From positions 372,001-436,000 of the forward strand of contig NZ_LXYU01000002.1 of assembly GCF_001952075.1 (NCBI RefSeq): a DNA stretch of 64,000 nt. Direction: 5' to 3'. The notes beneath the pieces are model-generated. The model was not told the origin of the DNA. It saw only the letters and a program-made list of their open reading frames with translations, and did no database searches. Position numbers and translations under genes: made by a program. This DNA is from Ditibartonella apis (GTDB lineage: Bacteria > Pseudomonadota > Alphaproteobacteria > Rhizobiales > Rhizobiaceae). Below, one piece after another: positions 22,179-29,271 of this stretch (the first letter of the stretch is position 1; each line of letters starts with the position of its first letter).

Positions 22179-24415
<2,237 letters not shown>

Positions 24416-25043: not shown

Positions 25044-25958
25044 TCACATTATAAAATTCCGCGCCTGATCAAGAATTGGCACAGCCAGTGATTTTAAAAG
25101 ATCAGCCAACAACTTGAAGTCTTTGCTCCGGCGTGATCGCCTTCTCCAGAAAAGACAAATATGCCGTTTCGGTGTTTCACCTTCAAAAGCAACAACGCTG
25201 ATATTATCCAAACGGGCTTCCGTTGAAACAGCAATTTGCGGAATGATTGTTATGCCGATGCCATTAGCAACAAGTTGCATCAATGTTGTTAATGAGGATG
25301 CCGTAATGTCGTGACGATATCTTTTTGTCTGGCAGGCCTCAAGGCTTTGGTCCCTCAGGCAATGACCTTCTTCCAAAAGCAACAACTTGCCGGTGTCAAC
25401 ATCGCCTGCACGAACGTTTTTATAAACCGATTGCGGGTCATCACGAGGCAGCGCATAATAAAAATCGTCGTCGAAGAGCAATTCCGACACAAATTCATCT
25501 TCATCAAGCGGTGTTGCAGCAACAACCGCATCAATATGGCCATTGCGCAGCAGCTCAACAAGTCTATCGGTTTTTGCTTCCTGAATTTGCAGCGTAAGAG
25601 AAGGGTACAAATGGCGTACCTTTGGTAATACAGACGGCAATATATAAGGTGCGACGGTCGGAATGATACCAAGTTTGATAGGATAGCTGAGCGGCGATTC
25701 ATGCGCTGCTACAATGTCTCCAAGCACGGTAAGCCGCGCCAGAATATCGTTGATAATCGGAAGAAAGTTACATCCGAGCGGCGTTAATATGATGCGTTTC
25801 GATGTCCTTTCAAAAAGCGGCGAACCGGCTATTTTTTCCATCTCGGCAATTTGTACGGAGAGTGCAGGTTGCGAAATGCCCAATTTTTCGGATGCTTCAC
25901 CAAAATGGCCCGTGCTGGCCAGAATCTGAAAATAACGAAGTTGTCTTACGGTAAACAT
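25044..25958 (-). CDS. oxyR: LysR-family peroxide sensor OxyR
   Basis: 304 residues. N-terminal winged helix-turn-helix (FTVRQLRYFQILASTGHFGEASEKLGISQPALSVQIAEME) and a C-terminal periplasmic-binding-protein-like sensing domain. The redox motif GHCLRDQSLEAC has both cysteines, matching the Cys199/Cys208 pair of E. coli OxyR that forms a disulfide on H2O2 exposure. In rhizobia OxyR controls catalase, and katA is 1.9 kb away here. Divergent from the structured RNA candidate at 26032; the shared 70-nt promoter interval probably carries its operator. Confidence 0.93.
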   Translation of the reverse strand: MFTVRQLRYFQILASTGHFGEASEKLGISQPALSVQIAEMEKIAGSPLFERTSKRIILTPLGCNFLPIINDILARLTVLGDIVAAHESPLSYPIKLGIIPTVAPYILPSVLPKVRHLYPSLTLQIQEAKTDRLVELLRNGHIDAVVAATPLDEDEFVSELLFDDDFYYALPRDDPQSVYKNVRAGDVDTGKLLLLEEGHCLRDQSLEACQTKRYRHDITASSLTTLMQLVANGIGITIIPQIAVSTEARLDNISVVAFEGETPKRHICLFWRRRSRRSKDFKLLADLLKSLAVPILDQARNFIM

Positions 25959-26031
25959 GATAACTTTTTCTTATACAACAAAAAACAAAAAGCAATTGGA
26001 TTTTATTTGATCAATTGAATACGATACCAAG
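25959..26031. promoter_or_regulatory. Divergent promoter/operator region of oxyR and the RNA candidate
   Basis: A plus-strand promoter can be drawn as TTGGAT (25996-26001), 18-nt spacer, TACGAT (26020-26025), giving a start near 26032. The spacer contains the palindromic TTGATCAA within CAATTG-rich sequence, a plausible LysR-type (T-N11-A) binding site. The exact OxyR contacts are inference. Confidence 0.4.
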
Positions 26032-26265
26032 TGTCCTGAAGAAGGACGGGACAGCACCTTGCCGGAGGGTTAGCTGCCCATTACAGAGATTGAGAGCTTG
26101 CTGTTTATTTTTCAACCTGAAATGCTTCAGGGAGGAGATTTAGCGAGCGCTCAATCTGTAACTGTATGGAGCTTTCTTCAGTTTACTTTTCTCTTCGGTC
26201 ATCATGCTAATTCAGATGACCACTTGGAGGCCGAAACATTTCCCCCTATGTTTCGGTCTCTTTGC
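26032..26265 (+). ncRNA. Strongly structured stand-alone RNA divergent from oxyR (OxyS-like position)
   Basis: A series of nested and tandem stems fills the interval: GTCC/GGAC (26033-26047); GGGACAGC (26048-26055) with GCTGCCC (26073-26079); a long arm TTACAGAGATTGAGAGC (26081-26097) with GCGCTCAATCTGTAA (26147-26161), one bulge and one mismatch, enclosing a perfect CCTGAA/TTCAGG hairpin (26116-26131); GGTCATC/GATGACC (26197-26221); and a terminator. No start codon with ribosome-binding site or conserved peptide is visible. A promoter-like sequence lies just upstream and oxyR is divergent. It matches no riboswitch, 6S, tmRNA, RNase P or SRP RNA motif I know. Confidence 0.6.
26228..26262 (+). 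terminator. Intrinsic terminator of the oxyR-divergent RNA
   Basis: AGGCCGAAACAT (26228-26239) pairs with ATGTTTCGGTCT (26248-26259), with one G-T wobble, followed by a short T-rich tail (CTTTGCTTATTT). It faces away from oxyR and is convergent to uspA. Confidence 0.75.
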
Positions 26266-26356
26266 TTATTTAAATTGAGATACTCATCCCAGTCAAAAGA
26301 TTTTCGAAAAATTAAATGTGAAGATGAACTATTGCCTTAAAGTTCCACTTCAAGGC

Positions 26357-27262
26357 TTAATTCCGCTCTATCCAACGATCTTTTTCCAATCCGCTTCCGA
26401 CGATAAGTGTCGGAACTTTCAGCTTTTGTATAAGGCTTCCTGGGATTGAACCATATATCAGGCTCGTTATTTTATCTTTGTTAAAGGCACTCAGAATAAT
26501 CATATCAATATTGTTTTCATCGACAATTCTATTGATATTTTCGGCATCACGGTCATCATCAAGAAGCAACGGCGACACCTGAGTTTTCGCACTCTCGAGC
26601 ACTCTTACCAGCTTTTCAATATCTTCTGATACCGAACTTGAAGCGTATTTTGAACAGGCAAGCACTATAGTTTTACCGGAAAGAAGATGAAAGTGATTGA
26701 AATAATCAGTTATCAGCTTCCATTTGAATTCGCTATCATAGAGAAATAGTGCTTTCTTTATCGGCTTCACATCAATTGTTGCAGCCAATACCGGCACTGG
26801 CGAAGCACGTATAATTGTTTCAAAATTTCCACCTACTTTTGCTACACCTGTTACATTTAATGTTTTTTGCCCTTGCTTGCCGATAACAATCAATGGTGAT
26901 GTTTTTCCATAAAACCTTATCGCGTCAGAAAGGCTATCAAACCGCAAGCGGGTATCAACATCACGCCCGCCACGTTCCTCTATATAGCTTTTCGCGTCTT
27001 CCAACAACGTTTGCCCGAGTTCCTGCATCAACCGAGCATAGGAAGCTGAATGATCATGTATTTTTCCAATGAAATCGGTATAGAACCTGTCATCGATATC
27101 CTTCGCTATATCCGGTGGTATAACTGCGTCGTCCGCCATGTTTTCAAGGACATTCAGCAATCTGATCGGGGCGTCGAATTGTTGGGCAGCCCAAAGAGCA
27201 AGTTCACAAACCGATTTCCAATAAATTGAGGAATCGACCAAAGCTAATATCGGTTCTTTCAT
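26357..27262 (-). CDS. Tandem universal stress protein (UspA family)
   Basis: 301 residues made of two Usp domains (about 1-150 and 155-295). The second domain ends with NNIDMIILSAFNKDKITSLIYGSIPGSLIQKLKVPTLIVG, the typical alpha/beta ATP-binding fold tail (G-2x-G-9x-G type loop is recognisable but imperfect). The first has ILALVDSSIYWKSVCELALWAAQ and SPVPVLAAT. Cytoplasmic stress-response family of uncertain molecular function. It lies between oxyR and katA, divergent from katA and convergent with the structured RNA, consistent with a peroxide or general stress role. Confidence 0.82.
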   Translation of the reverse strand: MKEPILALVDSSIYWKSVCELALWAAQQFDAPIRLLNVLENMADDAVIPPDIAKDIDDRFYTDFIGKIHDHSASYARLMQELGQTLLEDAKSYIEERGGRDVDTRLRFDSLSDAIRFYGKTSPLIVIGKQGQKTLNVTGVAKVGGNFETIIRASPVPVLAATIDVKPIKKALFLYDSEFKWKLITDYFNHFHLLSGKTIVLACSKYASSSVSEDIEKLVRVLESAKTQVSPLLLDDDRDAENINRIVDENNIDMIILSAFNKDKITSLIYGSIPGSLIQKLKVPTLIVGSGLEKDRWIERN

Positions 27263-27813
27263 TCACTTCACCCCGACTCCGATAATAAATATTGATTAAA
27301 TACGATTATATTATATTACATTATATTAACGAATTATTCTAATTAAAAATAACTATATGTATTTTTATAAAAACAACAAAAACAACATGTCATTTATATT
27401 TTATAAAATTATAATTTAAATTAAAGAAAAGGCGAACGTAACAATCGCCACAACTCTTTTTAAAAAAAATCGGGATGTTTATCGAAACGTAAAACTTTAA
27501 TCTACTTTATTAAAAAACATATAGGTGAAAAACCGGGCTTTTCCCGAGCTATAAGGAGGAAATCCATTTTTTAAAACTCCACGTTTTATCAAATTGCTCA
27601 GGCGTCGTGTCAAATCCGTAAAGTGCGTGAAAACGTAATCTTGGTCTGCGAAACGTTTTGTTGAGGATAAAGAAAGAAGCGGTTTTCCGGTTTTTGTTGC
27701 AGAGCTATAATTTAAGCTAATATGATTTTAAACAATTAAAAATTAGAATTAATTTAAACTTGCTCTATCTTATTAAAGTGACCAATTGAAATTGAACAGA
27801 CTTGGAGGCTTTA
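27263..27813. promoter_or_regulatory. Divergent control region of uspA and katA
   Basis: 551 nt, very AT-rich. For katA a promoter can be drawn as TTGCAG (27697-27702), 18-nt spacer, TATGAT (27721-27726), with the inverted repeat AGCT-N8-AGCT (27703-27718) inside the spacer, a possible OxyR or other LysR-type site. A stretch at about 27545-27560 reads AAGGAGG but no start codon follows. TTGGAGG at 27802-27808 is the katA ribosome-binding site. Confidence 0.35.
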
Positions 27814-29271
27814 ATGAGCGAGCGGATTACATTGACAACAACGGCCGGCGCTGCCGTACCAGATAATCAGAACTCCATTACTGCAGGTCCTCGCGGTCCT
27901 GTATTGATGCAAGATTATCAATTATTGGAAAAATTGGCGCATCAAAACCGTGAGCGTATACCGGAACGCACAGTTCATGCGAAAGGTGTTGGCGCACATG
28001 GTGTATTAAAAATCACCGGCGACATTACACGCTATACAAAGGCTGCTGTATTCAAACCCGGCACAGAAACACCCATGCTCGGTCGTTTTTCCACTGTTGC
28101 AGGTGAAAGAGGAGCTGCTGATGCCGAACGCGATGTTCGCGGTTTTGCATTAAAATTCTACACGTCTGAAGGCAACTGGGATCTCGTTGGCAATAATACG
28201 CCGGTATTTTTTGTTCGTGATGCCTATAAGTTTCCAGATTTCATCCATACGCAAAAACGCCATCCGCGAACCAATTTGCGGTCGAACACTGCTCAATGGG
28301 ATTTCTGGTCACTTTCGCCTGAAAGTCTGCATCAGGTAACGATTCTTATGTCGGATCGCGGTTTACCGATCGATACAATGCATATGAATGGTTATGGCTC
28401 CCATACCTATTCCTTGTGGAACGACAAAGGTGAACGCTTCTGGGTTAAATTTCACTTCAAGACGATGCAAGGGCATAAGTTCTATACCAATGCCGAAGCC
28501 AAAGAACTCGTAGGTAAGACCCGTGAAAGCTCTCAGGAAGCACTCTATAATGCCATTGAAAGCGGGAACTTCCCGCGTTGGAAAGTCCAAGTCCAGATTA
28601 TGCCTGAAGCAGACGCGGACAAGACACCTTATAACCCCTTCGATCTGACAAAAGTTTGGCCCCATAAAGATTATCCGCCAATGGATATCGGTATTATGGA
28701 ATTGAACCGTAATCCTGACGATTATTTTGCAGAAATCGAAGAGGCTGCTTTCTCGCCTTCGAACATCGTTCCAGGCATCGGCTATTCGCCTGATAAAATG
28801 TTGCAGGCTCGTATATTCTCTTATGCGGATGCACACCGTTATCGTTTAGGCACCCATTATGAACAAATTCCTGTAAACAAGCCCGTTTGCCCTGTTCATA
28901 ATTACCATCGTGACGGCCAAATGAACACTTATGGCGGCCATTCAACCAATAATGTCGACGCTTATTACGAACCGAATTCCTTCAATGGTCCGGTTGAAGA
29001 TAAATCGGCACAGGAACCGCCGTTAACACTTTCCGGTGATGCTTATCGTTACGATCATCGGGCTGGTAATGACGATTACAGTCAGGTAACGGCACTTTTC
29101 AATCTGTTCGATCAGGATCAGAAAAACCGGTTGTTCTCCAACATTGCCGATGCAATGGAAGGCGTTCCCGATTTCATCATCGAGCGTCAACTTGGACATT
29201 TTGAAAAAGTCCATCCGGATTATGCAGCAGGCGTACGTGCTGCCATAAAACGTAAAAAAGAAAGCAAATAA
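27814..29271 (+). CDS. katA: Monofunctional haem catalase (clade 3, small subunit)
   Basis: 485 residues from ATG 27814 (TTGGAGG six nt upstream). It disproportionates H2O2 in the cytoplasm. Catalytic histidine in [12 protein letters not shown], distal asparagine in [24 protein letters not shown]/haem contacts in [20 protein letters not shown], and the proximal haem tyrosine in [23 protein letters not shown]. Size and motifs place it with the small-subunit, NADPH-binding catalases. oxyR and uspA are upstream; a strong terminator follows. It depends on haem, whose last biosynthetic enzyme is encoded at 3.6 kb. Confidence 0.96.

Follow-up and report, generated by a model that had tools for sequence, protein, structure and literature searches.

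The sRNA OxyS of Escherichia coli and Salmonella, about 109 nt long, is transcribed divergently from oxyR and represses targets such as fhlA in trans in an Hfq-dependent manner. The CcsR-type CCUCCUCCC RNAs carry a C-rich loop, are stress-linked and are linked to DUF1127 genes. Among free-standing sRNAs of the Rhizobiales, ar14 (alpha-r14, NfeR1; RF02344) is described as a 123-nt RNA with three CCUCCUCCC loops, and the silencing of ntrB is attributed to these C-rich loops, which block the translation start by anti-Shine-Dalgarno pairing (PMC10746234). The Brt RNAs of Bartonella henselae, structured, Bartonella-specific and about 200 nt long, are presented as a multi-copy family, every copy being followed after 10-18 nt by an HTH gene (PMC5387305). 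In Rhizobiales, oxyR and a catalase gene are reported to share a bidirectional promoter whose catalase side is OxyR-regulated; the regulated gene is named katG in that account ('katA in some studies') and encodes a bifunctional enzyme, and 45 sRNAs are given as changed under H2O2 in Agrobacterium (PMC11975290).

We analysed a stretch of 64,000 nucleotides (the window) from a genome of 2.6 Mb whose nearest relatives are Bartonella, namely the MAG G257/L045, B. apihabitans BBC0178 (L038), Bartonella sp. M0177 (L039) and B. choladocola BBC0122 (L041). We take these relatives to be bee-gut Bartonella. The genes follow one another in the order guaB (22913-24415, plus strand), oxyR (25044..25958, minus strand), the RNA gene studied here (26031..26265, plus strand, about 230 nt), a universal stress protein gene (usp, 26357..27262, minus strand, Pfam PF00582) and katA, which encodes a monofunctional catalase (27814..29271, plus strand, Pfam PF00199). 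The RNA resembles OxyS by its place beside oxyR, its several hairpins with a terminator and its expected control by OxyR. It differs from OxyS in being about 230 nt long instead of about 109 nt, in its five hairpins, in having been detected only in Bartonella, in lying beside a catalase-type promoter and in having no Rfam match. It shares C-rich apical loops and the status of a free-standing Rhizobiales sRNA with ar14, of which this genome has a separate copy; however, it carries one UUCCCCCU loop and other hairpins, and the locus gave no RF02344 match. Like the Brt RNAs it is a Bartonella-specific structured RNA of comparable length, but it is present as a single copy in its own genome and is linked to oxyR, and the next gene is a convergent usp and not an HTH gene. 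The covariance model of the RNA had no match in 58 of the 71 Bartonella genomes searched, among which Brt carriers are presumably found. Unlike the CcsR-type RNAs it stands at oxyR, a CcsR-type candidate being present separately in this genome. The divergent oxyR-catalase promoter of Rhizobiales has the same box and CAATTGGA element at the same spacing, but it faces a catalase there and the RNA here.

The preliminary description of this DNA had claimed five independent stems, the last forming a terminator of the RNA's own, without coding potential. On the plus strand, positions 26032-26265 gave a minimum free energy (MFE) of -97.5 kcal/mol as compared with -64.5 +/- 4.5 for shuffled sequences (z -7.33, none of 200 shuffles as good); on the minus strand z was -3.9, likewise with none of 200 shuffles as good. 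All five hairpins, on the plus strand, proved to be real: H0 (26033..26047, GUCCU/AGGAC), H1 (26049..26078, with a GCCGGA loop in 13/13 copies), the long hairpin H2 (26082..26166, core 26087-26104 with 26140-26157), H3 (26197..26221, GGUCAUC/GAUGACC) and the terminator hairpin H4 (26226..26261), with its C-rich loop UUCCCCCU at 26240-26247. H2 is, however, longer than had been described, and the H4 stem is followed by a T-run of modest size: the 10 bases behind it include 4 to 8 T in the 13 copies and 7 T in the window. The MFE structure of the window includes an additional stem that encloses H1 and H2. This stem has no counterpart in the MFE structures of 8 of the 11 copies compared; the comparison supports five separate hairpins over this single-sequence structure. 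No ORF is conserved in the RNA, an ATG frame of 14-17 codons occurring in just 2 of the 13 copies (frames of at least 12 codons counted), and the 80-codon TTG frame at 26098-26340 matched no NCBIfam family. A small ORF inside the RNA was rejected as its product, being present in these two copies only. The AGGG of the H1 3' strand (26066-26069) could pair with CCCU of the H4 loop or with the 3' arm of the terminator (within 26226-26261). This tertiary pairing was also rejected, a single parallel change, common to three related genomes (the G254-G256 clade), being too little support. When katA, usp, oxyR and guaB were compared with the RNA by BLAST as possible sources of its sequence, the best E was 0.52.

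A DNA search of the 71 Bartonella genomes, the source genome included, gave strong matches in nine genomes besides the source, all with E at or below 1e-13. Eleven copies were aligned in two parts (A2 and A4), since an alignment of the whole RNA (A1) put H3 in the wrong place in the long copies. In H0-H2, 93.5% of 535 cells were paired, and 18 of 49 pairs were changed on both sides (3/5 in H0, 3/11 in H1 and 12/33 in H2, the latter in helices 3-7), compared with a shuffle mean of 6.4; none of 500 shuffles reached 18. When the partner was displaced by 1-3 columns as a control, 2-8 such pairs were counted. The number of further pair types in H0-H2 was barely above shuffles (20/500 as high). H3 and H4 are mostly conserved, with 95.7% of cells paired and 3 of 23 pairs changed on both sides (52/500 shuffles as high); all three changes lie in H3 (3/9 pairs) and none in H4 (0/14). 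Covariation at H3/H4 is weak, and H4 shows no compensatory change. The covariance model found the RNA in 13/71 Bartonella genomes, each time beside oxyR, at E 1.8e-30 or better; the copies of G254 and G256, which were outside model building, were recovered at 1.4e-36 and 1.8e-30. In the model-fitted alignment of all 13 copies, whose identity to the window goes down to 52%, 90.9% of 934 cells were paired and 22 of 72 pairs were changed on both sides, compared with 14.7 for shuffles (1/500 as high), so that the covariation looked for in related genomes was indeed present. Further pair types over the 13 copies were not above shuffles (340/500 as high). G-U cells outnumbered A-C cells, with 94 vs 14 in total (66 vs 13 and 28 vs 1 in the two part alignments), indicating that the selected RNA is most likely that of the plus strand. 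The comparison of the copies thus shows a structured RNA gene with compensatory changes, conserved beside oxyR.

The RNA is directly upstream of oxyR and divergent from it in 13/13 copies, in keeping with the earlier view that it is placed and oriented like OxyS without being homologous to it. This OxyR was found (E 1e-70 or better) in 14 of the 71 Bartonella genomes, which are the 13 RNA carriers and G259. The RNA is therefore present in 13/14 Bartonella genomes with this OxyR and in 0/57 without it. At E 1e-70, this OxyR was thus without a match in most Bartonella genomes (57/71). The G259 OxyR is 66% identical, and no credible RNA match was obtained in G259 even with filters off, the wider stretch L108 included. 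Outside Bartonella, no credible homologue was detected at family level (297 genomes) or at order level (397 genomes), both sets being samples of larger groups searched with strict filters. With filters off, 19 other oxyR loci (L085-L103) and L108 gave best E values of 0.009-0.08, all single-hairpin fragments or composites and none credible; for the 18 family-member loci among them the best E was 0.0098, again with nothing credible. A full-span model match in another family (G675, E 9.6e-8) was rejected, as the matched stretch runs across the 3' end of a protein-coding ORF and the terminator-like hairpin behind it; tblastn over 3.2 kb around this match did not find oxyR, katA, usp or guaB. Matches restricted to H4 in G340, G347 and G737 were likewise discarded, some outgroup model matches being ordinary terminator-like hairpins. 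No Rfam family matched at gathering level in the window, and only chance matches (E up to 5) were obtained in 25900-26420, none to OxyS. The proposed RNA class of alphaproteobacteria, or of Brucellaceae at large, was not supported by these searches, whereas a structured RNA gene of its own, with covariation, was supported. The RNA looks lineage-specific to the bee-gut Bartonella group, and apparently it is young, since neither G259 nor the relatives sampled outside the clade yielded a copy.

The neighbouring oxyR gene encodes a LysR-type peroxide sensor of 304 aa with the cysteine pair GHCLRDQSLEAC, identified by NCBIfam, Pfam and PDB matches, the NCBIfam OxyR models scoring below their curated cut-offs. 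The protein matches OxyR of known structure, and the GHC-N8-C cysteine motif is present in 14/14 Bartonella OxyR loci. An upstream box, GATAACTTTTTCTTATAC (25959..25976), is conserved without gaps in outgroup oxyR/katA promoters. Its ATAA-N7-TTAT palindrome (25960-25974), which we take to be of the LysR T-N11-A type, is centred about -65 from the putative RNA start. A second conserved element, CAATTGGATTTTAT (25993..26006, plus strand), contains the predicted -35 TTGGAT (25996-26001), separated by an 18-nt spacer from a predicted -10 TACGAT (26020..26025, plus strand), and transcription would start at about 26031-26033. This promoter-like pair (25996-26025) agrees with the plausible promoter noted earlier near oxyR, though a generic sigma-70 scan did not list it.

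In 8 of 18 oxyR loci of the family (with 1.5 kb of flank each, as the contig allowed), a catalase gene whose product is 77-82% identical to KatA is directly divergent from oxyR. The catalase of the window is monofunctional, unlike the published katG product, and the eight outgroup genes resemble it. The eight outgroup intergenic starts align almost gap-free with six Bartonella copies, as CATGATA-N7-(C/T)TAT ... CAATTGGA ... TAT, and the aligned segment faces the RNA in Bartonella and the catalase in the outgroups. A matrix built from the eight outgroup promoters was used to scan 3.29 million positions, corresponding to 63% of the source genome on both strands. The RNA promoter ranked 6 of 3.29 million with all 66 columns, and rank 1 with two conserved blocks that were picked after the alignment was seen (22.3, the next position scoring 15.3). 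This comparison shows that the RNA promoter is homologous to the katA promoter of relatives, and it strongly suggests OxyR control of the RNA. Promoter conservation beside oxyR could in part serve oxyR autoregulation alone.

A degenerate copy of the OxyR-type promoter was detected before katA (27706..27771, plus strand), with a box from 27706, TTAGAA at 27743-27748 and, after 17 nt, TATCTT at 27766-27771. When about 90 positions upstream of katA were tried with the two-block matrix, the best position was in the outgroup register in 9/9 genomes; the window copy scored 10.2, with 22 positions genome-wide as good or better. With the full matrix, the register was found in 4/9 genomes (the window, L038, L041 and G259), and the window copy scored -6.3, with 385 positions as good. 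An Irr/iron box was the first reading of this block; it was dropped, as the block is in register with the outgroup OxyR-type promoter. In G259 (L108), about 2.3 kb separate the start of oxyR from that of katA. There katA has a promoter-like copy (8.2 and 10.4), and the conserved box was not seen before oxyR by reading and by pattern, as opposed to matrix. Most simply, a duplication or split of the divergent promoter would have left an oxyR-side copy that now makes the RNA.

The H4 loop contains CCCCC in 13/13 copies, its flanking letters varying: it reads UUUCCCCCUAU in most copies, AUCCCCCCCUU in G253 and UACCCCCUUA in G254-G256. A search of 1.65 Mb of the source genome gave 361 terminator-like hairpins. 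CCC is present in the loop of 11 of these, and CCCC in that of H4 alone; the remaining ten include the ar14 sRNA (RF02344) and a CCTCCTCCC hairpin. The ar14 copy, with CCTCCTCCC-type loops, is located at L121:17539-17656 on the minus strand. At L138:8200-8320, a terminator hairpin with a CCTCCTCCC loop stands behind a small arginine-rich ORF (identified by eye), without an Rfam match at gathering level. We take this ORF to be DUF1127-like and the hairpin behind it to be a CcsR-type sRNA candidate. Given the rarity of such a C-rich terminator loop and the precedent of ar14/NfeR1, base-pairing in trans is favoured for the RNA, with the H4 loop as a candidate anti-Shine-Dalgarno seed. Over 1419 ORFs, 8-nt complements of the H4 loop were observed 13 times, compared with 19.6 for shuffled seeds, and 9 times in the Shine-Dalgarno region, compared with 6.6 (53/200 shuffled seeds as high). 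Complements of the H1 loop were observed 15 times, compared with 6.8 (7/200 shuffled seeds as high), none of them in the Shine-Dalgarno region. Since the H4 loop gave no excess over shuffled seeds, and the H1 loop a weak one confined to sites outside the Shine-Dalgarno region, we name no targets.

We regard it as probable that the locus is a lineage-specific structured sRNA gene, activated by OxyR, whose product acts by base-pairing in trans and represses targets under peroxide stress. We infer the transcription of this gene, its activation by OxyR, its induction by peroxide, the base-pairing and the target repression from the comparisons above. Oxidised OxyR would bind the box beside its own start codon and activate the promoter pointing away from oxyR (-35 at 25996, -10 at 26020). 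An RNA of about 230 nt with five hairpins would then be made, ending at the H4 terminator. Its H4 loop UUCCCCCU, and perhaps its H1 loop GCCGGA, may pair with purine-rich translation start regions, which would be blocked during peroxide stress.

An OxyR-driven RNA might also act through protein binding, as a 6S- or CsrB-like decoy or scaffold, instead of base-pairing. Its length and strong pairing, the highly conserved sequence of the H2 stem and of the loops, and a target scan without usable signal are consistent with such a role; however, no motif repeated across the hairpins was seen (by eye only), and the C-rich terminator loop resembles that of a known base-pairing sRNA of the order, so that we consider protein binding unlikely. 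It appears quite improbable that the RNA is constitutive and merely located beside oxyR, with an upstream block conserved only for oxyR autoregulation: the box does abut the oxyR start codon, and its conservation in outgroups may serve both directions, but the CAATTGGA element and its spacing are common to the katA side of outgroup promoters, and RNA and OxyR co-occur (13/14 vs 0/57).

The region 3' of the RNA bears on two further readings. A convergent usp follows the RNA in 8 of the 13 genomes (the window, G257, G201, G211, G239, G240, G241 and G258), an FAD-linked oxidase gene in G253, other ORFs and then katA in G252, and katA itself, on the same strand, in G254-G256, where it lies 435 bases past the terminator in L106. 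In G252, the space between RNA and katA (L104:9899-11956) is occupied by repeated ORFs of two alternating kinds, one of them of 381 aa without Pfam match. The variation of the downstream neighbour, in four arrangements, indicates that the RNA is a free-standing gene. The arrangement in G254-G256, together with a promoter that is the one facing katA in the outgroups, would suit an RNA that serves the catalase gene behind it as a long 5' leader or attenuator, a remnant of the old oxyR/katA promoter. This is nevertheless very improbable, as usp, the FAD oxidase gene or other ORFs intervene in the other genomes, katA has a promoter-like copy of its own and the RNA ends in a terminator-like hairpin. 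That the locus is just a terminator with structural filler between genes, devoid of RNA function, is hardly credible: H4 lacks compensatory changes and some outgroup model matches are ordinary terminator-like hairpins, but compensatory changes are present in H0, H1 and H2, the loops are constant and the RNA has been retained despite different neighbours.

The trans-acting, OxyR-activated sRNA proposed here and E. coli OxyS are probably counterparts that evolved separately. The RNA is likely to work like OxyS in position and control; it is not OxyS itself, because Rfam similarity and length both fail. We found no earlier report of this RNA in the open-licence literature, a scope outside which most subscription papers fall. 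An origin of OxyS from a peroxidase mRNA has reportedly been proposed by Krieger in 2022, according to the title and to a citing context that identifies the RNA as OxyS, and such an origin would parallel the catalase promoter observed here. We give an even chance to the view that a peroxide RNA like OxyS was invented a second time, independently, in the ancestor of bee-gut Bartonella: the divergent promoter of oxyR and catalase would have been duplicated or split, the catalase would have kept the weaker downstream copy and the oxyR-proximal original would have come to drive a new five-hairpin sRNA. If true, this would suggest that oxyR-facing promoters give rise to peroxide sRNAs repeatedly, and if OxyR does drive the RNA, an RNA arm of peroxide sensing has evolved two or more times at this position. 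The apparently young age of the RNA and the surviving promoter copy at katA would allow the birth of an sRNA gene to be traced, and bee-gut Bartonella gain a candidate regulator of oxidative stress.
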